A stretch of DNA of 49,200 nt from Fidelibacterota bacterium (GTDB lineage: Bacteria > Fidelibacterota > UBA2242 > JAOZSR01). The DNA lies in the NCBI GenBank assembly GCA_029939575.1, contig JAOZSR010000019.1:1-49200 (forward strand), in the 5' to 3' direction. Position numbers and translations under genes: made by a program. Shown here piece by piece: positions 6,699-28,800 of this stretch (the first letter of the stretch is position 1; each line of letters begins with the position of its first letter). Below the pieces are notes generated by a model. That model was not told the origin of the DNA. It worked only from the letters and a program-made list of their open reading frames with translations, and searched no databases.

Positions 6699-6920
6699 AT
6701 GTCTCAAATAGAACCGAATAATCGACTATATTTTTTGGACAATCTCAGAACTTTTATGGTTTTCCCGATGGTTGTTCTGCATTCAGGATTGGTTTATGAG
6801 ACATTCGGATTTGCAGGATTTTTCTGGATTGTATACGATTTTTCCGGCAACTCCTTGGTAGATGAATTGAAATGGAGCAACAGCCCTGGCAAGGGTATCA
6901 GCCCCTTTTCTGCAGGTTAA
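6699..6920 (+). pseudogene. N-terminal fragment of an acyltransferase-3 family protein
   Basis: The frame starts at ATG 6699, eight bases after the permease. Its first 50 residues read like the start of a membrane acyltransferase of the OafA/OatA/MdoC type: NRLYFLDNLRTF, then VVLHSGLVYE with the conserved histidine of helix 1. Family members have about 350-400 residues and ten helices. Here the similarity stops near residue 55 and the frame runs on through unrelated sequence to a stop at 73. The intact gene was probably the last member of the ABC operon. The abrupt change points to an internal deletion that joined it to the tail of another gene (next entry). Confidence 0.65.
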
Positions 6921-7035
6921 ACCAATGTTATTGAATTCATTAAAAAAAATGAGCCCTATAGGTCTAAAATTAGATTTTCAGCATATTGAAAATACTCTTC
7001 CGAAAATTGCTGCAATATTGGATAAAAATATGTAA
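6874..7035 (+). pseudogene. C-terminal remnant of an unidentified gene
   Basis: In a frame different from the acyltransferase fragment, 53 codons stay open to TAA 7033-7035. They read like the end of a soluble protein: GATALARVSAPFLQVKP, later KLDFQHIENTLPKIAAILD. There is no start codon at its beginning, and stops lie just upstream in that frame. I cannot name the family. Together with the preceding fragment it suggests a deletion that removed most of two genes. Confidence 0.45.
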
Positions 7036-7076
7036 TTTTTGATTATTAAAAGATATTTTAAAATAAGGATATTAGT

Positions 7077-8759
7077 ATGAAATCAATATCAAGACGTAAA
7101 TTTATTAAAGCTAGTTCTATGGCCAGTATTGGATTATATACAAATTGTTATAAAAATACAGAATTTGATATTATAATTAAAAACGGAAAAGTTTTTGATG
7201 GACTTGGAAACCCTGGTAAAATCGTTGATATTGGAATTATTGGAGAAAAAATCATAGCCATCAGAGATTTATCTACTGGAAAGGCAAAGCAGATTATTGA
7301 CGCAAAAGGTCTGTATATTTCTCCGGGTTTTATTGATATTCATACTCATACAGATATGGAATTAATGGCAAACAGAAAGGGCGAAAGTAAAATCCGACAG
7401 GGCATTACTACCGAAGTTGCCGGTAACTGTGGCTATTCTCCATTCCCAATAAAAAAAGAAGATCAACAGGAATTCTATGATTCCATCTACGAAAAATATG
7501 GTCTGGAATTAAAATGGAATGATATCAAAGGTTTTTTAAATGCACTTCGAAAAGGAGGAATTGCAGTTAATTATGCTACATTTACAGGACATGGAGATCT
7601 TCGGGCTTATGTTTTAGGTAGAAATGATGTTAAACCAACTTCAGAACAATTGGAAGAAATGAAAACTGTTCTCGCCAATTCTATGAAAGAAGGCTCACTC
7701 GGATTATCAACAGGATTGGAATATTCTCCGGGAAGTTATGCTGAAACTGAGGAGTTGATAGAACTTTGTAAAGTAGTGAAAAAATATAATGGTGTTTATT
7801 CTACCCATATGCGTAGTGAAGATGCCAAGGTCGAAGAGGCAATTCAGGAAGCTATAGAAATCGCAAAAAAATCCAAGGTATCTCTGCAAATTTCACATTT
7901 CAAAGCCTGTAACAAACCAAACTGGCACAAACTCGATAATATGCTCAGATTAGTACACAATGCAAAAAATGAAGGTGTCGACATTATGCTTGACCGCTAT
8001 CCCTATAACGCCTGGGGTACCGGTTTATCTTCTTTTCTTCCTCTATGGGCAAGGCAGGGAAATACAGATGAAATTATCAAAAGATTAAAAAATCCCGAGT
8101 TAACCAAAAAAATTACAGAATATATGATAACCCGCGCAACACTGATTGGTGGCTGGGATCATATAATGATCAGTTCATGTTCTCAAAAACAGAATAAAAA
8201 ATTCCAGGGAAAATATATCAATGAAGCTGCCAACATATCAGGGAAAAATGAATTACAATTTGTTTTTGATATCCTTATAGAAGAGAGAAATGATGTGGGA
8301 GTTATTGGCTTTGCCATGGATGAAAATAATCTGAAAAAAGTATTGGCTGATCCACTTTGTGTTATTGGTTCTGATGGAAGTGTAGCTGCACCTTATGGTA
8401 TTTTACACAAAGGAAATCCTCATCCAAGATATTATGGAACCTTTGCCAGGGTTTTAGGAAAATATTGTCGTGAAGAAAAAATATTTGATTGGCCAACCGC
8501 TATTAAAAAAATGACTTCCATGTCAGCACAAAAACTTCACCTGGAAAAACGTGGTATGATTAAAAAAAACTATTTTGCAGATATTACAATATTCAATCCG
8601 GAAACAGTAATTGACAAAGCTACTTTTGTCGCTCCTCATAATTACCCGGATGGAATTGATTATGTAATTGTTAATGGCAAAATTGTTATCAACAGAACAA
8701 AGCATACCGGGAATTTGCCTGGAAAAGTTCTAACAAATGATATTTTTGGAAAAAAATAA
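7077..8759 (+). CDS. N-acyl-D-amino-acid deacylase (D-aminoacylase family), Tat signal
   Basis: This 560-residue amidohydrolase begins with a twin-arginine signal, SRRKFIK (5-11) plus a hydrophobic stretch, so it should be exported folded. A cysteine at 24 could be a lipid anchor, but the lipobox is poor. The catalytic barrel carries DIHTHTD (H89, H91), the bridging GNCG (C118), STHMRSED, QISHFKA and the late GSDGS, all typical of the D-aminoacylase group rather than dihydroorotases. These zinc enzymes hydrolyse N-acyl-D-amino acids or related D-peptides. A periplasmic role in using D-amino-acid derivatives from peptidoglycan is plausible. It stands alone, between remnants on both sides. The physiological substrate is uncertain. 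Confidence 0.88.
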   Translation: MKSISRRKFIKASSMASIGLYTNCYKNTEFDIIIKNGKVFDGLGNPGKIVDIGIIGEKIIAIRDLSTGKAKQIIDAKGLYISPGFIDIHTHTDMELMANRKGESKIRQGITTEVAGNCGYSPFPIKKEDQQEFYDSIYEKYGLELKWNDIKGFLNALRKGGIAVNYATFTGHGDLRAYVLGRNDVKPTSEQLEEMKTVLANSMKEGSLGLSTGLEYSPGSYAETEELIELCKVVKKYNGVYSTHMRSEDAKVEEAIQEAIEIAKKSKVSLQISHFKACNKPNWHKLDNMLRLVHNAKNEGVDIMLDRYPYNAWGTGLSSFLPLWARQGNTDEIIKRLKNPELTKKITEYMITRATLIGGWDHIMISSCSQKQNKKFQGKYINEAANISGKNELQFVFDILIEERNDVGVIGFAMDENNLKKVLADPLCVIGSDGSVAAPYGILHKGNPHPRYYGTFARVLGKYCREEKIFDWPTAIKKMTSMSAQKLHLEKRGMIKKNYFADITIFNPETVIDKATFVAPHNYPDGIDYVIVNGKIVINRTKHTGNLPGKVLTNDIFGKK

Positions 8760-9166
8760 ATTCACCGGGAAACAGATATTACCTTTGATGGAATCTTCTG
8801 ATATTTCGATTTTATAAAAAATTTCCTGACAGACTACAATTTCCCTCAAAGTAAATAAAATTTTATCAAGGGATTTTGAGTTAAAAACATTATATTTTGT
8901 CTAAAAAAAATTAATAATTAGTATAAAAACAATATTCATTTTTCAAAAATGAGCAAAACAGAGATAAATCAAACCGAATTAATTACCACATTAATCAATC
9001 AGAGAAATGATGGCCAAAATGAATTTAACTCTATTAAAATTTCAAAAACTTGATGATATACTCAAAGCAATAGGATTACCTAAAAATAAAATGTGTACTT
9101 ATTGCTGGAATAAATGCTATAAGTCATGTTAATAAATGTTTGTAAATTTATTAAAGGAGACCCGAA
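8760..9166. other. Intergenic stretch with gene remnants
   Basis: 407 bases without an intact gene. TCCCT at about 8843-8847 and AGGGA at about 8871-8875 form a weak hairpin that could act as terminator for the deacylase. From 8949 to 9132 lie two overlapping coding remnants, the second resembling the end of PurF (separate entry). The last bases carry a good ribosome-binding site, AAAGGAGA, for the gene at 9167. Confidence 0.5.
9007..9132 (+). pseudogene. Remnant resembling the C-terminus of PurF
   Basis: The 41-codon frame from ATG 9007 ends in KLDDILKAIGLPKNKMCTYC. This resembles the last residues of some amidophosphoribosyltransferases (PurF), which close with a GLPK.KLCTYC-like cysteine motif. 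The preceding part fits better in the overlapping frame starting at 8949 (ending NSIKISKT), so a frameshift seems to separate the two. No glutaminase or phosphoribosyltransferase domain is present. It could instead be a tiny cysteine-rich peptide gene, but the similarity, the lack of a good ribosome-binding site and the neighbouring debris favour a remnant. Confidence 0.45.
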
Positions 9167-9955
9167 ATGAATAAATATTATCTGTCACTTTTGTGCTTTT
9201 TATTATTATTTACATCAGTTCCGGCGGAGGAAAATCCTGCAAAAAAAATTATAAATAAATCCCAAAAAGTTATAAAAATCAAAAGCTATGAAATGATAAA
9301 TACATTGACAATTTTTGATAAAAAAGGCAATTCCAGAATCCGAAAAATTGCCACGATATCAAAAAATTTTGAAAAAGAACAAATCGATAAAAAAATGATG
9401 CGATTTTTAGAGCCAGCAGATGTAAAAGGTACCGGATTTTTAACCTTTGATTATAATGAAAAAGATGACGATATGTGGATTTATTTACCGGCCTTGAGAA
9501 AAACCCGGAGGATTGTATCTTCCCAAAAAGCAAAAAATTTCATGGGATCAGAATTTACTTATTCCGATATGACCCAGATGACTATTGAAAATTTTACATA
9601 TAATCTTGAGGGAGAAGTGCAAATTGATAACGAAAAATGTTGGAAAATAGAAATCGATCCCATCAATGAAGATATTATAGATGAAACCGGATTTTCTCGT
9701 AAAATAGTGTACATTTCTAAAAATGACTATGTGTTACGAAAAGCAGAGTATTTTGACTATTATAACGAAAAATTTAAAATCATGTATGTTCATAAAGTCA
9801 AAGAAGTTGATCCGGAAAACCATCGTTTCCAGGTCATGTCAATGACTATTGAAAATTTACTTAATGGCAGAAAATCAGAAATGCTTGTTGAAAAAATTCA
9901 AATACGGGAAAGTATTCCTGACGATTTTTTCACAATCCGTTATCTGGAAAGATAA
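9167..9955 (+). CDS. Outer-membrane lipoprotein-sorting (LolA-like) protein
   Basis: A 262-residue secreted protein with a signal peptide (hydrophobic 5-18, cleavage near VPAEE). The mature part matches the LolA-like family often annotated as outer membrane lipoprotein-sorting protein: the segment MMRFLEPADVKGTGFL, then DDMWIYLPALRKTRRI and GSEFTYSDM are its hallmark. Such proteins have an open beta-barrel that carries lipid or lipoprotein in the periplasm and are frequently next to RND or MmpL exporters. Here the next gene is a MATE exporter 210 bases on. The start follows a strong AAAGGAGA. The actual ligand is unknown. Confidence 0.85.
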   Translation: MNKYYLSLLCFLLLFTSVPAEENPAKKIINKSQKVIKIKSYEMINTLTIFDKKGNSRIRKIATISKNFEKEQIDKKMMRFLEPADVKGTGFLTFDYNEKDDDMWIYLPALRKTRRIVSSQKAKNFMGSEFTYSDMTQMTIENFTYNLEGEVQIDNEKCWKIEIDPINEDIIDETGFSRKIVYISKNDYVLRKAEYFDYYNEKFKIMYVHKVKEVDPENHRFQVMSMTIENLLNGRKSEMLVEKIQIRESIPDDFFTIRYLER

Positions 9956-11538: not shown

Positions 11539-11889
11539 ATGTTTGGATTATATTTTATATTTATAGGTTTTTTACTTTTATTAATATTATTCTTCCATTT
11601 ATATATACATTTTAAAAATAAAGTATTAAGTCAGAAAAGCAATAAATCATTTGATGATCTGCACATAATACCAATATCCCATAAGCCGGGGAAAATAAAT
11701 TTTCTTATTCTCACTGAAATTATCCTGATTATTGCAGTTTTGTGGATCCTATTACCGGTTTTTTTTATATGTACTAAAAATCTCATGCCTGCATATATCT
11801 TAATTCTGATTTTCTTTTTCCTTTGCATACCTGGTTTGGTTTCATTAGTGAAATTTGGAATATTTAACAAAAATCCTGAGAATAATTAA
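11539..11889 (+). CDS. nuoA: Divergent NuoA-like subunit
   Basis: A 116-residue protein with three hydrophobic helices at about 3-25, 50-76 and 80-105 and a polar loop between the first two. Length, topology and position at the head of a nuo-ordered operon fit NuoA. The segments ILTEIILIIAVLWILLPVFF and LVSLVKFGIF align with NuoA helix 2 (usually DLEVAFLFPW) and its C-terminal end (usually YEWKKGALEW). The conserved acidic residues of helix 2 and the cysteine motif of the first loop, which lies near the quinone tunnel, are missing. Without the context I would have called it a small membrane protein of unknown function, so the assignment is moderate. nuoB and nuoC, expected next, are absent. 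Confidence 0.55.
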   Translation: MFGLYFIFIGFLLLLILFFHLYIHFKNKVLSQKSNKSFDDLHIIPISHKPGKINFLILTEIILIIAVLWILLPVFFICTKNLMPAYILILIFFFLCIPGLVSLVKFGIFNKNPENN

Positions 11890-11910
11890 TTATTTTAAAT
11901 ATTTAAAAAG

Positions 11911-13002
11911 ATGAATAGACCGAAAACTAACATTATATATAAAAATCCAATTCTAAAAAAAGAATTATACTTTTCTATCAGTACTTCCGGTGAAGTAATA
12001 AAAGAATTTTATTGTGATGAAACATATTTATTACCAAGAAGCAGGAAAAAAGTTAATTTTTCCGGAACAGCCAGTCTTTTTACAGAAAAAATGTTATTTC
12101 CATTTGATATCAGACTACCTTATGTAAGAGCAATTGAAGAATTATGCGATCAGAAAATTTCAGATTATTCTAAATATATCAGGTTGATTATAAAGGAGTT
12201 TAACAAACTTGATAACCATTTAACCTGCCTGGCAATGCTATTTTATTACTCAAATATGCCCAAAATGTATAACATGGTAAGAGAAGATATTTTTACAGTC
12301 AGAAAAGTCTTTATGATGTTTAACGATCAGGATTCTGCATCGGCATATATTATTCCAGGTGGAATATTAAAAGATATTCCCTGGGGTGGCATGGAAAGTA
12401 TTGAAAGATTTTCAAAAAATTTTATCCCTAATATAAAAAAATATAAGACGTTACTCCAAAATAATATAATTTTGCATAACAGGCTGGAAAACAATTTTGT
12501 CCTAAATCAAAAGGAATTAGAAAAATATAAAATATTTGGTACTATTAGGAGAGCATCAAATATTACCAATAATTTTATAGACATGAAAAATTCGGATTAT
12601 GAAAAAATTGATTTTGGTATTAATGTTGGTGATAAATTTAGAGGAGAATTTATTGACTGCTGGGACAGATTTTGGCTTTTATGTTGTGAAATGGAAACGA
12701 GTTTAAAAGTCATCAAACAGGTTGTATCAAAACTATTTTTCACAAAAGAAAAATATATAGAAGCACCAAAATTAAAATATCGTAAAGGTAAAAGTACATA
12801 TGTATGTGATGGAACTTCCGGAAAAGTATCTGTATCCTGTGAATATTTTGAAAAAAGTAAAGAACTATCAATTATTATAAATCTTCCTCACGCTGCAATT
12901 TTAAAAATGTTAAAACATAAATTACCCGGAAATTTAACTGAAGATCTATTAATAATTTTGATAAGTATGAATTTCAATTTTAACAATATGTTAATGCTAT
13001 GA
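11911..13002 (+). CDS. nuoD: Divergent NuoD-like subunit lacking the quinone-site motif
   Basis: The 363-residue protein aligns by eye along NuoD (49-kDa subunit) from about residue 65: YSKYIRLIIKEFNKLDNHL fits the YIRVIL.ELNRI.SHL block, AYIIPGGILKDIP fits YFRPGGV..DLP, then RRASNITNNF, DFGINVGD and WDRFWLLCCEMETSLKVIKQ. The first 60 residues, where NuoD has HPSTHG and GYLHRGIEK, have no such motif. The histidine and tyrosine that hold the quinone head group seem lost, and the C-terminal SDG..PYR..R region is weak. NuoD normally sits between NuoB, NuoC and NuoH in the Q module, yet no nuoB or nuoC is present here. Its end overlaps the next start (ATGA). Confidence 0.75.
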   Translation: MNRPKTNIIYKNPILKKELYFSISTSGEVIKEFYCDETYLLPRSRKKVNFSGTASLFTEKMLFPFDIRLPYVRAIEELCDQKISDYSKYIRLIIKEFNKLDNHLTCLAMLFYYSNMPKMYNMVREDIFTVRKVFMMFNDQDSASAYIIPGGILKDIPWGGMESIERFSKNFIPNIKKYKTLLQNNIILHNRLENNFVLNQKELEKYKIFGTIRRASNITNNFIDMKNSDYEKIDFGINVGDKFRGEFIDCWDRFWLLCCEMETSLKVIKQVVSKLFFTKEKYIEAPKLKYRKGKSTYVCDGTSGKVSVSCEYFEKSKELSIIINLPHAAILKMLKHKLPGNLTEDLLIILISMNFNFNNMLML

Positions 13003-14036
13003 TTAATTTATTAATAAACCAAATGAAGGATATCCAATTTCTGCAATTGTTGCCAATAGCAGTACAATATGGAATAGCAATACTATTTTTCTATTTTGCT
13101 GCACTATTATTAATTTTATCTGTTTCTTTAATATTTAATATTATAGAAAACAGGTATATTTTTTCCGGAATAACAAAAAATTACATAACTCCAACTCATT
13201 TTACAGATTTCATTCACTCATTAAAGTTTGATCAATATTCCAGACAAAAATCGGGAGCCGAAAGATTTCTTAATCAATTATTCCCTTTCATTATCTTAAT
13301 CATCACAATATCTAATTTATTTATATTACAGTACATACCATTTGCAAAATACTTTTTTGGATTTAATCATCCGCATAGTTTAATTATTGTATTTTCAATG
13401 CTAATATCAAACATTCTATTGCTTACATTATTTAATCTTTTAAAAAATAACAAATATAAAATACAACTCTTTAATAGAGTTATAATAAAATCATTAATCT
13501 GTTTACCGGCATTGTTATTTTCAATTATACATGCAATCATTTTTGCAAAATCCTTTAATTTACAGGATATCATTGTAGCCCAAAATGCAACTATTCTAAG
13601 ATATTTACCTGGATGGTTAGCTTTTTTATCTCCTTTTTCATTTTTAGCTTTCCTCATTTATTTATCAACGTGCCTTTTTATTTTACAAATATTTAAATAT
13701 AATTATTTACAAATTCAAAGCTTTCACAATGCTGAAAAAAACATTTTTTTCTTAAGAATTATAAAATATATCATCTTGTTTTTCTTACTTTCAATAGGTG
13801 TAATTATCTTTCTGGGAGGATATTTATCGCCTCTGGAAAATTTTGATTTTCTTACCCATGATATTTTTCATTTAGCATGGTTTTTAGGAAAAATTACACT
13901 TCTATATTTACTCTTAGAAAAAATAAATTTCATGATTCCTGACTTTAGTAAACTTCAGTTATTGAAAATTAATTTTTATTTATTTTATCCGCTTTCATTC
14001 TTAGCAATATGCGGATTTGTTTTAACATATTCTTAG
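12999..14036 (+). CDS. nuoH: Divergent NuoH-like membrane subunit
   Basis: A 345-residue protein with about eight or nine helices. Position after NuoD and pieces such as the NLQDIIVAQN segment (NuoH: NLSEIVEAQ), the following PGWLAFLSPFSFLAFLIY helix and FFLLSIGVIIFLGGYLSPL (NuoH: ATTLFLGGW) identify it. The cytoplasmic loop that in NuoH reads AETNRAPFDLPEAESEL and shapes the quinone chamber and the E-channel is replaced by non-acidic sequence (STCLFILQIFKYNYLQ). The glutamate of the YEV helix is also missing. The protein could still anchor NuoD-like and NuoJ/K-like partners, but normal quinone coupling looks impossible. No nuoI lies downstream. Confidence 0.75.
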   Translation: MINLLINQMKDIQFLQLLPIAVQYGIAILFFYFAALLLILSVSLIFNIIENRYIFSGITKNYITPTHFTDFIHSLKFDQYSRQKSGAERFLNQLFPFIILIITISNLFILQYIPFAKYFFGFNHPHSLIIVFSMLISNILLLTLFNLLKNNKYKIQLFNRVIIKSLICLPALLFSIIHAIIFAKSFNLQDIIVAQNATILRYLPGWLAFLSPFSFLAFLIYLSTCLFILQIFKYNYLQIQSFHNAEKNIFFLRIIKYIILFFLLSIGVIIFLGGYLSPLENFDFLTHDIFHLAWFLGKITLLYLLLEKINFMIPDFSKLQLLKINFYLFYPLSFLAICGFVLTYS

Positions 14037-14051
14037 CGAAGGAGTATATCG

Positions 14052-14537
14052 ATTAATATTTTATTAATATTTCTGGGATTAATTATTCTATTTTTGGCAG
14101 GTTTTACAGTTTTACTTGACAATGCAAAACTGGTTTTTGGAAGTATCTCTGTTATTTTAATTTTATTAGCAGTAATACCATTTATTTTAGGATCAAATTT
14201 TTTAGCTTTTTCCATTTTAATTATTTTTGCTTTTCCACTAATATTAATTATGTTACTTTTATTAATTCTTACAAACCAAATATCTGACGCTACCAATTTG
14301 AAATTTAGTAAAATTAAAAAAATACCCGCAGGATTAGCCAGTTTAGTTTTTATACTTATAGTAACTTTTATTATAATCAGCCCCTTTAAAAAACAAAACA
14401 TTCAAAAGTTTGAAATTATAAACTATGGAGAAATAATAATTTCCGAATATACACTTCTCTTCGTGGTATTAGCCTTTATTACATTTCTGACAATTACAGG
14501 GATAATATTTATTAATAAAATGAGGCTTAAACAATGA
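14052..14537 (+). CDS. nuoJ: NuoJ-like subunit, probable ATT start
   Basis: The reading frame encodes about five helices, the number in NuoJ, and sits directly before NuoK. Middle helix LGSNFLAFSILIIFAFPLIL fits the NuoJ segment that normally contains YAGAI, but here the tyrosine and glycine are replaced (FAFP), so the helix-breaking element of TM3 is changed. The first ATG-like codon is TTG 14094, which would cut the first helix in half. The frame is open back to 14037, and a strong GGAG (14041-14044) lies 7 bases before ATT 14052. An ATT start therefore gives the expected complete first helix. The end overlaps NuoK (ATGA). Confidence 0.7.
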   Translation: MNILLIFLGLIILFLAGFTVLLDNAKLVFGSISVILILLAVIPFILGSNFLAFSILIIFAFPLILIMLLLLILTNQISDATNLKFSKIKKIPAGLASLVFILIVTFIIISPFKKQNIQKFEIINYGEIIISEYTLLFVVLAFITFLTITGIIFINKMRLKQ

Positions 14538-14830
14538 AACCGGTATTAATATTATCCGCCATGCTTTTTTGCATTGGTCTTTATGGAGTGCTAACTGTTA
14601 AAAATAGTTTCAGGCTATTTGTAAGTGTTGAATTGTCAATTATTGCAACATTCATGACCCTTTGTACCTTTGCTTTCTGTGGAAATGATCAACTTCATGG
14701 ACGACTTTTTTTATTAATTGTTATGTTTATTTATTTATGTCAATTATTAATAGGATTTGGCCTTGTAATCAAATTAAAGGATAATCGGACTATTCAAAAT
14801 GGAATTTCGAACCAGGCCTGGGAGGATTGA
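14534..14830 (+). CDS. nuoK: NuoK-like subunit
   Basis: 98 residues with three helices, the usual NuoK length. The start LSAMLFCIGLYGVLTVKNSF matches the NuoK beginning (LFALGVYGVLTRRN). The helix-2 glutamate is kept in SVELSII (E33). The second conserved glutamate, in helix 3, is glutamine here (Q70 in CQLLIGFGL, where NuoK has AEAAVGLAL). Both carboxylates normally form the E-channel that relays coupling from the quinone site to the antiporter-like subunits. NuoK is the least divergent of the small subunits in this operon. Its stop codon overlaps the NuoL start by one base (TGATG). Confidence 0.88.
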   Translation: MKPVLILSAMLFCIGLYGVLTVKNSFRLFVSVELSIIATFMTLCTFAFCGNDQLHGRLFLLIVMFIYLCQLLIGFGLVIKLKDNRTIQNGISNQAWED

Positions 14831-16728
14831 TGTCATATTATATTACTGCAATATTATTATTACCTTTAATAAGTTTTCTTATTTTAACATTTTCCGGGGA
14901 AAGGTTAAAAAAATACGGATTCGGAATATCATTTTTCGCCCATTTAGGATCATTAATTCTATCAATTACAATATTTTTTTACCAGTTAATAATGCAGGAT
15001 AAAGGACTTTTTTATGAAATGAAATATCCCTGGATAACACCAAATAATTTTCAACTTGGTTTTAGTTTAACAATTAACAACCTGGGGGCATTTTATCTTT
15101 TTGCAACATCCTTCATCGGCAGTATTACTTATTTATTTTATTATCCTTTTAAAAACAACCTGAAAATATTCCCCGGGATTTCTCTCTTTACATTTTCAAT
15201 TTATGGAATAATACTCTCCGGCTCCCTATTCAATTTATATATTTTTTATACTATTATAACTATTAGTTCATTTGTTTTCTATAATACAGTGAGAAATGGT
15301 CTAAAGAAAATCCAAATTTCATTAATTTATGCAGATATATTATTTTTATTAGCATTATTAATAATTTTTTCCACATCCAGAGATGTCAATCTGGTCTATT
15401 TATTTCAAGAGAAAGGATTAGCTGGTATTGGTTATAAAACTCGATTTTGGTCTGGGTTATTTATTTTCTTAAGTATTTTATTAAAAATTGGCTTTTTCCC
15501 TTTTAATATATTATTTGAAAATCGTTATGAGATGAAATCATCATTTCATGGGTATTTTCAATCAACAGGAATTATTTTTGTTGGAATATTTGTTTTACTC
15601 AAACTATTCCCCCTGTTTCCCCCATCATTACAAACACTAATTGCTTTTATAACTGCACTTTTAACATTAATCATGATTATTATTTCATGTAACCAAACCG
15701 AGATCAGGAAAATTATTCAATACATCAATCTGGTTATAGCCGGATTAATCATTATTGGTATTGGATCAGCAAATTTCCTCCATTCCAGTTGTTATCTTTT
15801 AGCATTTATTTTTGTAAATACCCTGCTATATTTTATTATGCTAAGAATGCCGGCAAATTCAAATATTATAGCAGAAGATATGGGGGAAAATCTTAAATTA
15901 GAGGATAATTTTAAGGCCTCACAGCGATATTCATTAGACTATTGGGCGCTTCTTGTTACAATCTTAACAATAGTCGGACTTCCATTATTTTCAATGTACA
16001 GTAGTAGAACAGCAATCACTGTTTCAGCTTTCATCAAAATGCAACACAACCCTGTTTTATCATTAATAATAATTTTCCTATTCCTAACTTATTTTGCAAT
16101 TTCTTTTTCACTTTTCCGGCTCTTCTTTGCAATTTATTATAATAACAGCAAAGCAATGAAAACTTCTAAAAAGCAAGTTGAAGATGTACAAAAAAAGGGA
16201 AATCCTGTTATAATTATTATCTTAATGATGTTATGTTTCTATATAATTTTCCATTTCCCCGGCTGGAATCCAATAAAAGAAAATACCTGGATTTCAAAAT
16301 ATTTATATTCTATTGAATATAGTTCTATTGATAATGAAAATTTATTTATGATCCTGGCTATTATTTCCATAGTTATTACAATATTAGGAATGAGCATGGC
16401 TTTCCTTCTCTTTGTGTACAGGAAAAATTATAATGTTAAATTAAAGAAAAAATTCTCCAAACTTTTGACCTTTTTCCAAAATGAATTATATATTTCAAAA
16501 AGGAGTCAGATACTTTATAAAACTTTAAGAAAATTTAATGACTTTTTTGTTGATTTTGAGATAAATAAAGTAAAAAACATCTGGGATTATTGCTTTAAAT
16601 ATAAAAACAAATTAGATAAAATTGATGAATACAATGAACGTACAAAAATCTTTTTTGATAAATTTTTTACTAAATATCATCAAAAATCAAAAAAGACAGT
16701 GAGAAAAATTCTAACTTATTTAAAATGA
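14830..16728 (+). CDS. nuoL: NuoL-like antiporter subunit, altered proton path
   Basis: 632 residues starting at ATG 14830 after GGAGG. About fifteen helices belong to the Mrp/NuoL fold. QTEIRKIIQYINLVIAG aligns with the conserved QTDIKK..AYSTISQLG, and the TM7 lysine remains (LLKIGFFPF). The TM5 glutamate that pairs with it (normally FWELVGLCSY) is not there (FYTIITISSF). The TM12 SKD motif reads SSRT, so lysine has become arginine. The [22 protein letters not shown] signature is lost. The C-terminal 120 residues are polar and helical, like the lateral helix that clamps M and N in complex I, with NELYISKR resembling NKFYIDELY. No final transmembrane anchor follows it. The lateral helix implies that it still assembles with NuoM and NuoN. 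Confidence 0.88.
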   Translation: MSYYITAILLLPLISFLILTFSGERLKKYGFGISFFAHLGSLILSITIFFYQLIMQDKGLFYEMKYPWITPNNFQLGFSLTINNLGAFYLFATSFIGSITYLFYYPFKNNLKIFPGISLFTFSIYGIILSGSLFNLYIFYTIITISSFVFYNTVRNGLKKIQISLIYADILFLLALLIIFSTSRDVNLVYLFQEKGLAGIGYKTRFWSGLFIFLSILLKIGFFPFNILFENRYEMKSSFHGYFQSTGIIFVGIFVLLKLFPLFPPSLQTLIAFITALLTLIMIIISCNQTEIRKIIQYINLVIAGLIIIGIGSANFLHSSCYLLAFIFVNTLLYFIMLRMPANSNIIAEDMGENLKLEDNFKASQRYSLDYWALLVTILTIVGLPLFSMYSSRTAITVSAFIKMQHNPVLSLIIIFLFLTYFAISFSLFRLFFAIYYNNSKAMKTSKKQVEDVQKKGNPVIIIILMMLCFYIIFHFPGWNPIKENTWISKYLYSIEYSSIDNENLFMILAIISIVITILGMSMAFLLFVYRKNYNVKLKKKFSKLLTFFQNELYISKRSQILYKTLRKFNDFFVDFEINKVKNIWDYCFKYKNKLDKIDEYNERTKIFFDKFFTKYHQKSKKTVRKILTYLK

Positions 16729-16758
16729 ATGAAAACAGATTGAAATAGAGGATATTTT

Positions 16759-18267
16759 ATGCTAAATCATTTATTAAGTCTCAATGTATTTCTGCCACTT
16801 ATCGGAGTGTTCTTTCTACTTTTAATAAAAAATAAAAACACAAAGATAATTAAAACAATTAGTAGCAGTATTACAGGAATCCAACTTTGGATAATTTTTC
16901 AAATACTTGCCGGATTTAACAGGCAAAAAAGCGGACTGCAGTACGTAGAACATTCCAAATGGACTGAATCTCTGTCAATTGATTTCTTTTTAGGAGTTGA
17001 TGGTATAAATATTATTTTCATAGCATTAACCTCAATTGTATTTTTCATTTCTATTTTAACATTTTGGAAAAAAAACAAATCAGTCAAAGAGTATCTAATT
17101 ATTTTTTTATTGTTAGATACCGGCTTAATGGGTCTGTTTTTAAGTTTTGATCTTTTCATGTTTTTGCTGTTCCTTGGATTAACTTTATTTTCCTTATATT
17201 TTCTCATTATTGTTCATAATGATAAAACTAAAGACAAGTTTCATCGCCTTGGATTCGTAATAATTATAGCTTATAGTTTTATTCTTTTGGGAGTTTTACT
17301 TTTAATTTTTGGTAACGAATCTTTCTCATATAATATGTTAGAAATCAGCCATGCCTCCAGTTATTCTCATGGTTTTGAAATTATCACTTTTTTGCTACTT
17401 TTTATTGGGTTTGCCCTTCTCTTCCCGATTTTTCCATTTCATAGTTGGCTAATTTCATCTATAACCAAATTACCTGTTTATATAAATATTATAATTTTAG
17501 GAATAATTATTAAAATTGGTGCCTATGGTTTAATGCGGTTAGGTTTTTATCTGCTACCTTATGCAACAATCAAACTTAGTCCACTTCTTGGAATAATCGG
17601 TACAGTTAATATTATTTATGGTGCTTTATGCGCAATTACCCAAAAAGATTTAAAAAATATGATTGGGTATTATTCCATCATGCAAATAGGATTTGTACTA
17701 CTTGGTATGGCTACAATAAAAGGCGGTGCAGTAAACAATTTTCAGGCTGCGATCACAGGAATCAGTGGCGCATGGTTTCATATTTTTAATCATGGAACCA
17801 TTGTCATAATATTACTTTTACTTTCTGATATTTTCCCCTTAAATAAAATAAAGGATATCAAAATTTCAGAAAACAAAAAATGGGCATCATCGATTTTCCC
17901 CGGAATAGTTATTTTGACTCTATTCGCTGGATTTGGTTTACCGGGATTCTCAACTTTTATATCGAGTTTATTTTGTCTGGTAGGCGCAATTCAACTTTCC
18001 GGAATAAATATATTTGCCATGATTTCTGTAATAGGAATTGCTCTGAATATTTTTTGTTTCTTTAAATGGTTCAACATCCTTTTTTCAAACTTTTCAGGAA
18101 ATTTTGACTCAATTTTTTCTGAAACCAAAAAACATTATATTTTTATTTTGCTGCCAGTAATATTTATCATTTTAATACTTGGAATTTTTCCTGATATTTT
18201 TCTTTCTCTAATTAACATTAGTGTAGAAAATCTTGTAAAGTTAATTACTATGTTTTCAGTTAAATAA
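16759..18267 (+). CDS. nuoM: NuoM-like antiporter subunit, key Glu/Lys replaced
   Basis: 502 residues, fourteen helices, clearly NuoM: LFPIFPFHSWL, GIIIKIGAYGLMR, YGALCAITQKDLKNMIGYYS and GFGLPGFSTF. Compared with the family, the TM5 glutamate (normally FFELMLIPMYFLI) is glycine (LFLGLTLFSLYFLI). The TM7 lysine before PLFPFH is leucine. The TM12 glutamate of GFVGEF is serine (FISSLF). The TM8 lysine (IIIKIG) and the HIFNHG histidines are kept. In canonical NuoM the first two residues form the pair thought to drive proton movement. The gene follows NuoL by 30 bases. The sequence is intact and well conserved apart from these sites, so it is unlikely to be a decaying gene. Confidence 0.92.
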   Translation: MLNHLLSLNVFLPLIGVFFLLLIKNKNTKIIKTISSSITGIQLWIIFQILAGFNRQKSGLQYVEHSKWTESLSIDFFLGVDGINIIFIALTSIVFFISILTFWKKNKSVKEYLIIFLLLDTGLMGLFLSFDLFMFLLFLGLTLFSLYFLIIVHNDKTKDKFHRLGFVIIIAYSFILLGVLLLIFGNESFSYNMLEISHASSYSHGFEIITFLLLFIGFALLFPIFPFHSWLISSITKLPVYINIIILGIIIKIGAYGLMRLGFYLLPYATIKLSPLLGIIGTVNIIYGALCAITQKDLKNMIGYYSIMQIGFVLLGMATIKGGAVNNFQAAITGISGAWFHIFNHGTIVIILLLLSDIFPLNKIKDIKISENKKWASSIFPGIVILTLFAGFGLPGFSTFISSLFCLVGAIQLSGINIFAMISVIGIALNIFCFFKWFNILFSNFSGNFDSIFSETKKHYIFILLPVIFIILILGIFPDIFLSLINISVENLVKLITMFSVK

Positions 18268-18280
18268 AGTAGTCTGATTT

Positions 18281-19705
18281 ATGAATAATTTCCTTAGTCT
18301 AAATTATTTTATACCAGAAATTGAATTATGTCTCATTGCAATAATAATTTATTATTCAGGGCAAAATAACATAAAAAAAACAAGGCTGGAAAAAATCACT
18401 CTTATCGGGTATGTTGGCATTTTAGCTAGTCTGTTTTTTTTTCAATCTTCTTATTCTCATCAGGGTTTTCATCACTTAATAGTTATTAATTCCCTGACTT
18501 TTCTATTCAAATTTTTCCTGATCGTAGCAGGAATTTTATCTTTCCTGTTATATAATTTTTATAATAAACATGTCCCAAGCAGTGATGCAGAAAACCATTT
18601 TTATTCAATTGTATTAATCTTGGGTGGATTTTTGCTAATTTCAGCAAATAATCTAATTCTAATATTTTTAGCAATTGAAATTATTTTTATCTCAGTATTT
18701 TTTTTGTTAATCAATGAAGAACAAAATGAATTAAAAACAAAATATTTAAACATTAGCATTTCCGGAATTATCTCTTCGTTAATAATATTACTTACATTTA
18801 TTTTCATTTATGGTTTAGCAAATACCCTGAATCTGCAAAAAATTTGTGAAACTTTAATACAAAATTCTATTCCGGAGACTTCTGTTATATTAATATTACT
18901 AATGGTTTTCATTGGGATTGGAATTAATATAGTATCAATAATAAAATATTATAGTTTGAAAAATTTTAATAATAGTTATATAAATATTCTTGTTCCCATT
19001 GTGCCAATCATTGCTGGGTTTGGGGTTGGATTTAGAATCATTTTAACTATTTGGAATATGACTGATTATTTTGAGAACAATCTGTTAGCACTTAAGTTTG
19101 CTTTAGGAGTTATCGCTCTATTAGTTCTAACAATAGCTACTTTATTAAGTATTATTTATAAAAAAGGCTCAAGAATTGTTAAAATGAATGTTATTGCACA
19201 TCTTGGATTTGTTATTTTGGGACTTTCTGTCTTTTCCATGCAAAGCTTTAGTGTAGCGCTTTTTTACCTAATTACTTTTTTGATATCTTATATAGGAGTA
19301 ATAATTTGCACTGGCTATGATCAGGGTTTTAAAATAAAAATATCGAAAAAGGGAAATATTACACTCGCAAGTTTTGGGAAAATTCTATTTCTACTAAGTC
19401 TGGTAAGTGTTCCATTTACAATCGGATTTAGTAGCAAGTTTGCTCTTTTTGCTTTATTAATATCCGAAGGTTCATTTCATTATTGGTTTGTCGTTGTTGG
19501 GTTGATAAATTCTATTCTTATGCTTTATGTTGTAATGAGGATGTTGCATAAAAAAATTACAAATCGTAGAAAAATCGAAAATTTCTCTAAAAAGTTGCCC
19601 CTTCTGATATTAATAATGGGCTTAATTATTTTTCAGTTTTATTTAGCAATATTCTGGGAAAGCGTTGTCCGTCTTTTGGAAAGTTATCTCAATATATCAG
19701 GTTAA
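18281..19705 (+). CDS. nuoN: NuoN-like antiporter subunit
   Basis: 474 residues, about fourteen helices, last gene of the operon. The beginning LNYFIPEIELCLIA and FLAIEIIFISVFFLL match NuoN, and the TM5 glutamate is kept in the latter. The TM7 lysine region (normally AFKVAAVPFHQWTPDVYEG) is replaced by INIVSIIKYYSLKNF, with no PFH..TPD motif, and the TM8 lysine seems lost. The TM12 lysine remains (FSSKFALF). Thus L, M and N keep different residues of the same charge chain. The operon ends here; only 24 bases separate it from the converging response-regulator gene, and no terminator hairpin is obvious. Confidence 0.88.
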   Translation: MNNFLSLNYFIPEIELCLIAIIIYYSGQNNIKKTRLEKITLIGYVGILASLFFFQSSYSHQGFHHLIVINSLTFLFKFFLIVAGILSFLLYNFYNKHVPSSDAENHFYSIVLILGGFLLISANNLILIFLAIEIIFISVFFLLINEEQNELKTKYLNISISGIISSLIILLTFIFIYGLANTLNLQKICETLIQNSIPETSVILILLMVFIGIGINIVSIIKYYSLKNFNNSYINILVPIVPIIAGFGVGFRIILTIWNMTDYFENNLLALKFALGVIALLVLTIATLLSIIYKKGSRIVKMNVIAHLGFVILGLSVFSMQSFSVALFYLITFLISYIGVIICTGYDQGFKIKISKKGNITLASFGKILFLLSLVSVPFTIGFSSKFALFALLISEGSFHYWFVVVGLINSILMLYVVMRMLHKKITNRRKIENFSKKLPLLILIMGLIIFQFYLAIFWESVVRLLESYLNISG

Positions 19706-23255: not shown

Positions 23256-24215
23256 ATGAAAACCTATAAATTAGATATTAAAAAAAGTATTAGTTTACTC
23301 TCAACTGCCCAAAAAATTATTATTTATATTTCTTTATTTTTAACTTTTTTAAATCTTTTGGGATTACTTTTCCTTGGTTTCCCCAGTTTTTGGCTAACCT
23401 CTGAATCTATCGCGATGTTTATCTTAATTATTTTATTTTTTGTTATTGGAAAAAATGAACCCTTTTATATTGAACATAATAAGGAGATGACAACCGTTAT
23501 TTTAGGGAAAAAAAATAGAGTTATTTTAGAGCGTTGTTTTATTTCACGCTTCCCTTTTACAAGACAATACAAATTTAAACAGGTCGTAATGATGAGAGAA
23601 TATCGTGAGGATGGTACTTTATATTCTGAAACTCCCTATAAAAACGGACATATTAATGGTGAACGCAAAATTTATTCCCCAACAGGATTTGTGAGAAGGT
23701 CAACAATGTATATTGAAGACCAGGTAGATGGTTGGGACAAGAAACTTGACAGTGGACAATTATCGGTAGAACAACATTTTAAAGATGCCAAATTACATGG
23801 TGTCTGTAAAGAATTTGACCCAATAACCGGAGCCATGATTAAATTAACCAGTTATAAAAATAACAAACTTTGGGGTCCTACAAAAATATTTGATAAAGAT
23901 ACAAAAAAAATACTCCGGGAAATAGAATATGTTGATGGAATTAAATCTGGTATTAGTAAAGAATTTTTTCCTGATGGAAAAATTAAATCAGAAACAGAAT
24001 ATTCCGATAACCGTAAAAATGGAACTCAAAAAGAATACTATCAAACTGGCAATATAAAAAGAATAACAACCTTTTTAAATAATATGAAAAACGGTACTGA
24101 AACAACTTATTATGAATCTGGTATAAAATTAACAGAAACAAACTTCAAACTTGATAAGCAAGATGGCGCACCTAAATATTTTGATCCTGAAGGAAATCCT
24201 TTAATAGAAGAATAA
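23256..24215 (+). CDS. Membrane-anchored MORN/YwqK-like repeat protein
   Basis: 319 residues. Two hydrophobic helices (about 18-40 and 46-66) anchor the N-terminus. From about residue 110 there are roughly seven imperfect repeats of 22-24 residues of the MORN_2/YwqK type, e.g. KEFFPDGKIKSETEY, KEYYQTGNIKRITTF and TYYESGIKLTETNF, each followed by NG or a similar turn. In other bacteria such repeats occur in proteins annotated as toxin-antitoxin YwqK-like or as polymorphic-toxin immunity partners, but no toxin gene is next to this one. Function is unknown; a surface or membrane-associated binding scaffold is all that can be inferred. Confidence 0.75.
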   Translation: MKTYKLDIKKSISLLSTAQKIIIYISLFLTFLNLLGLLFLGFPSFWLTSESIAMFILIILFFVIGKNEPFYIEHNKEMTTVILGKKNRVILERCFISRFPFTRQYKFKQVVMMREYREDGTLYSETPYKNGHINGERKIYSPTGFVRRSTMYIEDQVDGWDKKLDSGQLSVEQHFKDAKLHGVCKEFDPITGAMIKLTSYKNNKLWGPTKIFDKDTKKILREIEYVDGIKSGISKEFFPDGKIKSETEYSDNRKNGTQKEYYQTGNIKRITTFLNNMKNGTETTYYESGIKLTETNFKLDKQDGAPKYFDPEGNPLIEE

Positions 24216-25880: not shown

Positions 25881-28800
25881 ATGGAAAAAAATAGTTTTGA
25901 AAATTTAAAATCTGCTCTTAATTCAAAAAAAATTAACAGCTGGTTTGAAATGAACCTGTTTCTTGATAAAATCAGAGACACCAGAAAACCATTTTCTAAT
26001 ATCCCGAATAATTTTGATGATTTTTTAAAATCCCTATCAAAAGGTATTGCATTTATTACTTTTGATTTTGGAGTTGATGGTGTAACAATAGAAATTGAAA
26101 AATACACTAAAATATTTCAAAATTTAATCAGGAAATATTCAAATAAATCGACCAATATTTTCTACATTGGAGATTCCTGTAATATTAATTTAGACAAAAA
26201 AGAAAATATTCATTTCTATGAATTAGAGGGTTCAATAGGATTTGATTACTGGGATGGCTATAAAGAATTTTTCTTTACAAAACTGACTCGGGGTGGCGAA
26301 AATTATAACAATTTATATAAAAAAATATGGAAACAGACTCTTTCAATGAGCTTAGACCTTGGGGAGTTTATCACAAAAAATGATATTCAATTATTAATTC
26401 CGGTTAACACCAACTCCAATCCCGGGAATGTAGCCCTGGCCTTTTCCATTGTCCTGGTTTCTGAATTCATGAAAATACCCGTGCTAAATAGCAATCATGA
26501 TTTTTATTGGGAAGATGGTAATCCCCCAAGAAAGCGTAAGGAAAATCAACCGGCAGGATTAAGAGATCATTTTTTTACTAATTCTCATATCGGTGAAGTT
26601 TTTTCTTTGATAGAAATTCTTTATCCCTGGGATAGCCCGACCTGGTTTCAGTGTACTTTAAATCAAACTCAATTAAATACACTAATTAACAATTTTGGAT
26701 TTAATCCCAAAAACACATATCAAATCCCAACATTTATTGATACTCAAAAATATAAGCCTATATCCCACAAATCAAAAAAATCAATCTTAAAAAAAATTCA
26801 AACCCTTTTTGCCGGATCAGAAAAAAAACTATATTCCAAATCTGTTGCTGATATAATTTCTGAATTTGGTAATCCTATTGAATTCAACTCCCCATTCATC
26901 CTAGGAAACAAAGGCAAAATTAACATACATTTAACTCATTCCAATTTGTTAATATTACAACCCACCAGGATAATCGAGAGGAAAAGGATTGAGAGAAATT
27001 TTCAATTTTTCCAGGCATTATTTAAAAATCCCCAATTTTATAATTTTTTTAAAACTCACCATCTATTAACAATAACAATTCTAATCTCCGGTCCGGTTGC
27101 AACTGGTCAGGGTGATTACTATAAAAAATTAATTTTTTCCTTTCGGGATTTTCTGGAAAATATTCCCAAAAATTTTAAAAACAGAATATTTTTAGCATTC
27201 AAATTTGGTTTTAATTCCAATCAGTTTATGGTTGAAAATAATATTAATTCCTTAGATATTAATGAATTATTTGGCGCAGCAACTATTGTAACCTTACCAA
27301 GTGAAACCGAAGGCAGAGGACTTCCGATTATCGAAAGTTCCGCATCTGGTACACCATTAATCGTAAATCGATATAAACCGGAAAATGTTTATTCCAGCCT
27401 AATCGGTGAAAATCTGGACGATTCTCTAAGGTTAAAAGTTTTTGAATATCCAGATGATGCAAGCCAGTTACCGGAAGGATTTTTGGATTTATTTACCGAT
27501 CATGAAACCTTTGAAAACAGGAAAGAACACAATAGAAATGTAGTAGAAAAAAGATTTAGTATCAATGTACTTCAACAAAAGATGGAAAAATTCCTATATA
27601 CTTTATGGATTCGCTGTCAACATCCAAACAAACAAGACTTTCAGAATGTAAAAAATATTTTTCAAATCCATGAAAAGTGTACCACCTATAATAAAGATTT
27701 TCATGAACTTGTTTTATGTGATAATAGAAAATATATTCCGGGATTTACTAATCTGGAATATATGATAATATTAAAATCCCTGATTGATCCGAGTTATTTC
27801 AGAATGGAAGAAAAAGAGGTTAAGGGAAGAATTATGAGGTTCGCTAATAAACTATTATTACGTCATGAAAAATATGGTAAAATAGAAGAGGAAAAAAAAT
27901 ATTCCTTTTTTAATCAAATAGATGCCCTCTTTGAATTTAATGAAGGTTCAGATGATATTGTGATTGATCATTCATTGAGTTACAGACATCGTCATAATTT
28001 GCATTATAATTTTCGTAAAATAACAGAATTCGAATTAATGGGTTTAGTGGCTGAGGTTTTTAGAAAAACTATTGGTCCGATTAAAACAAAAGAACTACCT
28101 GCAATGTCATTTGACCTTTTTATGAAATCTCATTTTAGCCTGAGTGAATTGGTTGGAAATAGACCATTAATGATTAATAATTCAAAAAGACTAATCAAAG
28201 ATCTGGAATCTAATAGAGATATTGCTATTTTTCATGGAACACAATTATCATTGGAAATCAGAATTCTTGTTATACAAAATATAAAACATCGACTGGGCAT
28301 TAAAAATGGCGATGAACTCACTGAAGAAATTCTTGATAATACAGATATAGATAGCATTGGGAAAATATATTTATTCATCCGTGAAAAATCAATTGGATCA
28401 CCTGTTTATTTTCAAAATGTTGTTGAATGGATTCAAAATACTGATGACCACGAATTGGAATTATTATTCAACTGCGGTTTGTTAAAACTAGTACCCACAA
28501 AAATAATTGCTTCTGGAACTCATTTAGGACAATTAGGAGAAAAGGCATTAAAGACTTTACTGGAAATTAGAAAGAAAAATGGATTCCTCATTTCTTTGGG
28601 TGATACTAATTATATGATGACTGACAAGATTGATATGGAATCTTATCACATCGGGACTGTGAGACATATTTTATTCAGAAATTATTCTCAAATCCGTAGA
28701 TCAGAAGGTTACATTCAATGGGTTCCGGCAGGCTTAAGTCCTTGCCTGGCTTACCCGACTCCTATTCAAACCCCAATCAAATTTTCACAAATTTTAAGCA

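Follow-up and report, generated by a model that had tools for sequence, protein, structure and literature searches.

What use can the genes of respiratory complex I (NDH-1) have once the subunits that bring in electrons are gone? This question is raised by a stretch of DNA of 49,200 nucleotides from a Fidelibacterota bacterium (assembly GCA_029939575.1, contig JAOZSR010000019.1; the whole stretch is called the window here), in which eight forward frames at 11539-19705 follow one another in the order nuoA-D-H-J-K-L-M-N, and in which nuoB, nuoC and nuoI are lacking, together with nuoE, nuoF and nuoG. Complex I and its relatives are regarded as redox-driven ion pumps, and this stripped operon is a complex I homologue that fails the defining redox subunits, the quinone site and the proton path. 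Judging from the sequences, the best explanation would be that the membrane arm and its NuoD cap form a non-redox, non-pumping pseudo-enzyme complex, with a structural or docking role and a core made of NuoD and NuoH, which has been retained in one bacterial order for some other use; we give this explanation a probability of about 0.5.

Absence of the redox subunits

A preliminary description of the window had reported this gene order, the six missing genes and tight gene borders, with ATGA overlaps at D/H and J/K and TGATG at K/L, and all of it has been borne out: the order and the absences by the frames, the family models and, for NuoB, NuoC and NuoI, tblastn. When these three proteins of two complete operons were used as queries, neither the window operon nor any of 18 stretches from related stripped genomes gave a match at E values up to 1, and all six queries matched the two control operons. 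In one relative (G019, L036 10240-10658), H and J are separated by a gap of 420 bases at the usual place of nuoI, and no nuoI remnant was recognisable there. The preliminary description had also counted among the missing genes every subunit that binds FMN or Fe-S clusters; the lack of electron input stands, but, because NuoC carries no Fe-S cluster, the Fe-S subunits lost with respect to the 11-subunit form of the phylum are NuoB and NuoI.

The missing genes could simply have moved elsewhere, a possibility that the preliminary description had itself raised. The window genome (3.79 Mb, 190 contigs of which the window is C64, 95% complete) has a single match to the NuoB family (PF01058), on contig C45, and a single match to the NuoC family (PF00329), that domain being carried by a gene of the hydrogenase cluster on C45. 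This group-4 [NiFe] hydrogenase cluster (3904-16194 of L004, G000:C45:22000-41900) comprises a nickel-hydrogenase-type large subunit, NuoB- and NuoC-domain genes, a maturation protease, Mrp-like subunits, and further Fe-S and flavin-type subunits; its large subunit has two of the CxxC pairs that bind nickel, and the window NuoD has none. Since the sole matches belong to the hydrogenase cluster, the relocation of nuoB and nuoC was rejected for this genome (NuoI was not sought genome-wide, as ferredoxin-like matches are too many). nuoB does move in the phylum, and the PF01058 search detects a moved nuoB, because, in each of the seven genomes in which nuoB is displaced from an otherwise complete-type operon (six of family f11 and one of f24), the same search located a NuoB-family gene on a different contig. 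Two of them, G032 (L122) and G101 (L126), have no nuoB between A and C, and the reading of nine more stretches showed nuoB out of place in G048, G075, G130, G127 and G129 (L136-L140).

Related genes are widespread in the window's order. The NuoB family is present in 23/23 genomes (44 PF01058 rows, assessed from the length of the frames and their closeness to hydrogenase-type D matches, not from the neighbourhood of each, with partial matches in G017 and G021 left unassigned). PF00329 matches, judged by score alone, occur in 21/23, with best E values of 3e-18 to 7e-29; outside the order, most genomes with a NuoC match reach 1e-37 to 1e-50, family f8 being among the exceptions. NuoF-family proteins, found in 23/23 genomes, are taken by frame length as RnfC, hydrogenase or Nfn subunits. 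Such genes could in principle supply a hybrid redox enzyme, in which NuoB-, NuoC- and NuoI-like subunits of the hydrogenase, or an unknown partner, would bind to the NuoD-like subunit and power the arm. Although the NuoB- and NuoC-like subunits of the window's hydrogenase cluster and the ubiquity of the NuoB family in the order agree with such an arrangement, we consider it very unlikely: D and H subunits are already part of the hydrogenase itself, and, as the stripped NuoD is without the quinone His, Tyr and Asp, NuoH without the quinone loop and the arm without coupling residues (see below), the electrons would meet no acceptor site of a known kind.

Distribution of the stripped operon

The stripped operon, whole or cut by contig ends, was found in 14 of the 23 genomes of the window's order (within Neomarinimicrobiota), as read from the loci and from a NuoM profile search made in the order only; a check of its conservation among related genomes had been proposed in the preliminary description. 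Seven genomes carry all eight genes on one contig (G000, G003, G008, G011, G012, G017 and G019; in G003, the assignment of A, D, J and K rests on position and size, as no profile matched them, and in G011 gene A was recognised only in translation). In three, the genes are split over two contigs, whose joining is inferred (G015, G016 and G022), and in four the operon is cut by contig ends (G010, G018, G020 and G021). Two genomes (G013 and G014) keep only D and H, and in the remaining seven no stripped operon was found (G001, G002, G004, G005, G006, G007 and G009). These counts have to be read knowing that G007, G009, G020, G021 and G022 are only 57-77% complete and that G006 and G010 have no PF00361 match at all, so that absence there may reflect missing contigs.

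The loci reduced to D and H (L037 of G013, 7695-9826; L039 of G014, 6753-8884) have other genes directly after H, and in both genomes Proton_antipo_M (PF00361) is found only on the contigs with hydrogenase-type D and NuoB (C92 and C171). When a profile of the stripped NuoD was run over 245 genomes of the phylum, 12 proteins scored 356-548 bits, all in the window's order, and the rest did not exceed 281 bits; the D proteins of G003 and G012, which are very divergent and have no Pfam match, did not stand out with this profile, and equally divergent ones elsewhere may be missed. Family f4 belongs to the window's order, and proteins closely related to its stripped NuoD were found at seven loci in named records, six of them from Candidatus Neomarinimicrobiota; the placing of the window in that phylum rests on this kinship. 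A scan of genome contigs with the window D alone gave no relative, and viral contigs gave none either.

The preliminary description had seen no sign of an assembly gap, and this agrees with the finding that the operon recurs elsewhere in the order with different genes around it; an assembly gap or contamination was thus rejected. The sharing of the operon by genomes of one order, the relatives with D and H only and the loss of the quinone site go beyond what had been described before.

Loss of the quinone site and the proton path

Positions whose roles in complex I are established (E. coli numbering) were scored in the stripped sequences (8/12 for A, 13/14 for D, 12/14 for H, 9/10 for J, 9/10 for K, 8/12 for L with partials excluded, 10/12 for M and 11/11 for N) and in 10/17 complete-type operons of the phylum, the rest being of the same genus, truncated, without nuoB in place or not added. 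The ten complete operons keep every scored position except the variable NuoJ E80 and NuoH G134. The quinone-site His, Tyr and Asp of NuoD are kept in 0/13 stripped sequences, Asp being replaced by Asn in eight; in NuoH, the PEAESELV loop is unrecognisable, E157, D213 and E216 are kept in 0/12, E218 in 2/12, E220 in 1/12 and E228 in 2/12, and K274 is kept in 11/12 (alignment is poor in the H loops and at the NuoD N-terminus, and single-residue calls there are less sure).

The losses extend along the proton path. NuoA has lost D79 and E81 in 8/8 sequences, NuoJ has lost Y59 in 9/9, and NuoK has lost E72 in 8/9 and E36 in 7/9. Every NuoM (10/10) has Gly at E144 and has lost K234 and H322, H348 being kept in 4/10 and E407 in 2/10. 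E144, H334, H338 and K342 are lost in 8/8 NuoL, H254 is kept in 1/8, and position 399 has Lys or Arg in 8/8. In NuoN, K217 and K247 are kept in 2/11 (G018 and G019 only) and E133 in 3/11. Judged by the scored residues, G003 is one of the most altered genomes, and G018 and G019 belong to those that have changed least. As to a possible cause, a loss of quinones was considered and set aside, UbiA being present in 106/110 genomes and thus uninformative. Cytochrome bd oxidase is absent from 23/23 genomes of the order, which says little on respiration, since the search left out heme-copper oxidases and covered the order without a comparison to the rest of the phylum.

Some charged positions of the antiporter-like subunits persist: K265 in 9/10 NuoM, K229 and D178 in 6/8 NuoL, and, in NuoN, H305 in 10/11 and Lys or Arg at position 395 in 11/11. 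They fit a repurposed ion path, that is, a passive or gated channel, or an exchanger, which would be run by ion gradients through the remaining residues of L, M and N. NuoM also has the lowest ratio of nonsynonymous to synonymous substitution rates (dN/dS), 0.085-0.158, in the three pairs that allow a comparison with other large subunits. We regard such a path as possible but unlikely, since the NuoM pair E144 and K234, NuoL K342, H334 and H338 and the NuoA acidic pair are gone from every sequence counted, and NuoK E72 from nearly all, and since G013 and G014 keep D and H without L, M and N, judging by PF00361 outside the hydrogenase contigs. The preliminary description had proposed an ion channel or antiporter; an arm that works like that of complex I is not supported, as A, H, J, K, L and M and, in most genomes, N have lost most of the Glu, Lys and His that form the proton path, and what survives of that proposal is some other ion path.

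Selection on the remaining genes

The preliminary description had taken the eight open frames as a sign of selection. With the simple NG86 method, dN/dS within genera was 0.085-0.42 in 19/20 gene comparisons, so that values near 1 in all eight genes were not observed. For the eight genes of G008 and G022 together, L and M being partial, it was 0.245 (bootstrap 0.215-0.278); for M and N of G018 and G019, 0.151 (0.110-0.222); and for the D and H kept by G013 and G014, 0.137 (0.105-0.176). Gene A reached 0.42 (G016-G010) and 0.83 (G016-G021, with a synonymous divergence, dS, of only 0.08), and its bootstrap in G008-G022 reached 0.68; purifying selection on gene A alone is weakly shown. A neutral simulation with the same synonymous divergence and no indels gave a mean of 84 in-frame stops (minimum 63 in 50 runs), and none was observed; as the frames were chosen as open, the zero is partly a matter of choice, and the telling point is that they span the full length of their homologues. 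Purifying selection speaks for some function.

The complete complex I of the phylum gave, where computable, dN/dS values of 0.006-0.129, mostly below 0.06, although these pairs are more diverged and many are saturated in dS, so that the comparison with the stripped genes is rough. The apparently weaker selection on the stripped genes, their very long branches in trees and the gradation from eight genes through D and H only to none found in G006 would suit a relic in slow decay, in which the redox function is gone and the remaining genes erode without a present function (G006 also lacks the antiporter subunits of hydrogenases, and missing contigs may explain its result). However, the joint estimate for G008-G022, the lack of stops where neutral runs produced at least 63, and a gene order and topology preserved across two families make such a relic unlikely.

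Hydropathy profiles indicate membrane helix counts in H to N similar to those of complete complex I, those of J being lower in some sequences. An AlphaFold model of the window D is of low confidence, with a mean predicted local distance difference test score (pLDDT) of 51, although its helical core reaches about 70-85. Of the PDB matches listed for this model, the best 50 all come from complex I or from related NDH entries (best E 2.2e-8). The model of the window H (pLDDT 47) is too poor for use.

Ancestry

Other families of the phylum carry an 11-subunit complex I. Among 15 further operons from these families, 11 read A-B-C-D-H-I-J-K-L-M-N, two are cut by contig ends and the other two are those of G032 and G101; L049 and L054 have the 11-gene layout, B, C and I of L049 having been checked by Pfam. 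In two operons, L119 and L120 (G049 and G058), NuoH has 415 amino acids and the NuoI frames exceed 300, longer than in most complete operons of the phylum.

In trees of M and of D, a branch supported at 100/100 separates all stripped sequences from the others, which fits one origin of the stripped form. Besides the stripped sequences, these trees contain E. coli and 10 complete operons, with no other phylum, and the tree tool warned of long branches (the window, G003, G012 and E. coli and, for D, also G011) and of odd letter make-up. Because E. coli falls among the complete sequences, the trees leave unsettled an origin inside the phylum; by gene order, descent from the phylum's own 11-subunit complex I is the simplest account.

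A dTDP-sugar 3,5-epimerase-like gene lies divergently beside the operon in many relatives (including G019, G013, G015 and G008; four cases were checked by Pfam, the others by size and position), and is absent from that place in the window. The recurrence of this neighbour, whose dN/dS is 0.05-0.10, suggests inheritance of the operon in place. In G008, a gene for a sigma-54 response regulator lies upstream of the operon.

A proposed pseudo-enzyme complex with a structural role

Because NuoB, NuoC and NuoI, the quinone site and most of the proton path are gone, the products of the operon would be unlikely to work as complex I does. In the explanation that we prefer, the ancestor would have been an 11-subunit complex I from which NuoB, NuoC and NuoI were lost. 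The eight remaining proteins would still assemble in the membrane, and the complex would oxidise no donor and would not pump in the way that complex I does. Instead, it may serve as a structural or docking platform for a membrane or cytoplasmic partner. Its core use would probably rest with NuoD and NuoH rather than with ion transport through L, M and N, because G013 and G014 keep only that pair under selection.

Several points weigh against a pseudo-enzyme complex of this kind. The persistence of channel residues in L, M and N, above all NuoM K265, NuoL K229 and, in NuoN, H305 and the positive charge at 395, is more than a pure scaffold need keep. The stripped genes seem constrained yet faster-evolving than their redox cousins, and the trees leave the stripped branch either inside or beside the complete sequences of the phylum. 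No neighbour outside the operon common to the window and its relatives was seen, although no systematic search was made.

If this explanation is true, the arm, or at least its NuoD-NuoH core, has a use of its own after the loss of the electron carriers and of most coupling residues. The operon would then be an experiment of nature that bears on what each part of complex I is required for, and the existence of relatives at different stages, with eight genes or with D and H only, makes the question testable.

Comparison with known systems

The membrane-arm subunits A, H, J, K, L, M and N are homologous to those of respiratory complex I and stand in the nuo order, but the operon lacks the Q-module (NuoB, C and I) and the quinone site, and keeps few residues of the proton path. 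With the 11-subunit complex I of other Neomarinimicrobiota it shares the subunit order and differs in the absence of NuoB, NuoC and NuoI. The membrane subunits are also related to those of group-4 [NiFe] hydrogenases (Mbh, Ech and Hyf types) and of Mrp antiporters. Group-4 hydrogenases retain a large subunit with Cys residues as well as counterparts of NuoB and NuoI, and Mrp antiporters have MrpB/C/E/F/G-like parts; the stripped operon is without these parts, and the window D is without CxxC. Mrp B, C, E, F or G was the best match of none of the eight proteins, a match of NuoK to subunit G being at chance level (E 0.62). As the preliminary description had held, the gene set is thus unlike those of Mrp antiporters and DabAB, the stripped operon having D and H (DabA was not searched by profile). 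The energy-converting hydrogenase related (Ehr) complexes are relatives of complex I that have lost the active-site metal and kept NuoB and NuoI, whereas the stripped operon has lost these two as well.

A precedent for a dead respiratory complex kept for its structure has been proposed in the bc1 complex of Acetobacteraceae. According to that report (PMC10715153), this deranged complex has lost its cofactor ligands and a structural role in stabilising complex I is proposed for it. It is another complex in another phylum, and in the present case the 11-subunit form has also lost three subunits of its Q-module. In the literature searched, which did not include bioRxiv preprints and most subscription papers, no complex I operon lacking NuoB, C and I was seen to be described. 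The available sections of a Black Sea study describe Marinimicrobia with no mention of such an operon (PMC8359207), and those of a summary of known relatives of complex I subunits name none of the stripped kind (PMC13399641).

Coordinates and neighbouring genes

Table 1. The eight genes of the stripped operon in the window
Gene	Position	Strand	Length (amino acids)	Characteristics
nuoA-like	11539..11889	+	116	Without D79/E81 pair and Cys loop (alignments)
nuoD-like	11911..13002	+	363	PF00346 E 2.8e-22; quinone-site His/Tyr/Asp lost
nuoH-like	12999..14036	+	345	PF00146 E 7.1e-12; PEAESELV loop not recognisable
nuoJ-like	14094..14537	+	147 as called	PF00499 E 6.3e-6 (below cut-off); NCBIfam NuoJ E 0.0014
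nuoK-like	14534..14830	+	98	PF00420 E 8.1e-11; E36 kept, E72 = Gln
nuoL-like	14830..16728	+	~632	NCBIfam NuoL E 1.1e-31; channel residues mostly lost
nuoM-like	16759..18267	+	502	TIGR01972 289 bits (cut-off 263.8); E144->Gly, K234->Leu, K265 kept
nuoN-like	18281..19705	+	474	PF00361 E 4.7e-11, NuoN models; K217/K247 lost, E133/H305/K395 kept

Pfam complex I families are matched above cut-off by D, H, K, M and N, with J below it (Table 1). The window NuoA has no complex I family match in Pfam or NCBIfam, but it aligns with its counterpart in G019 (L036:7644-8042), which matches PF00507 (E 6.4e-15). The NuoJ frame is open from 14037, yet it has no ATG, GTG or TTG start before 14094. For NuoL, a start at 14830 (ATG) is more likely than one at 14827 (TTG); the protein matches the NCBIfam NuoL models below their whole-protein cut-offs and, by alignment, lacks the last transmembrane helix seen in the NuoL of relatives.

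A MATE transporter gene lies upstream of the operon in the window. Further along, a protein with MORN_2 repeats is encoded at 23256-24215, and a frame of 1404 amino acids at 25881-30095 gives the impression, without a search, of glycosyltransferase parts followed by an enzyme-like C-terminal part.

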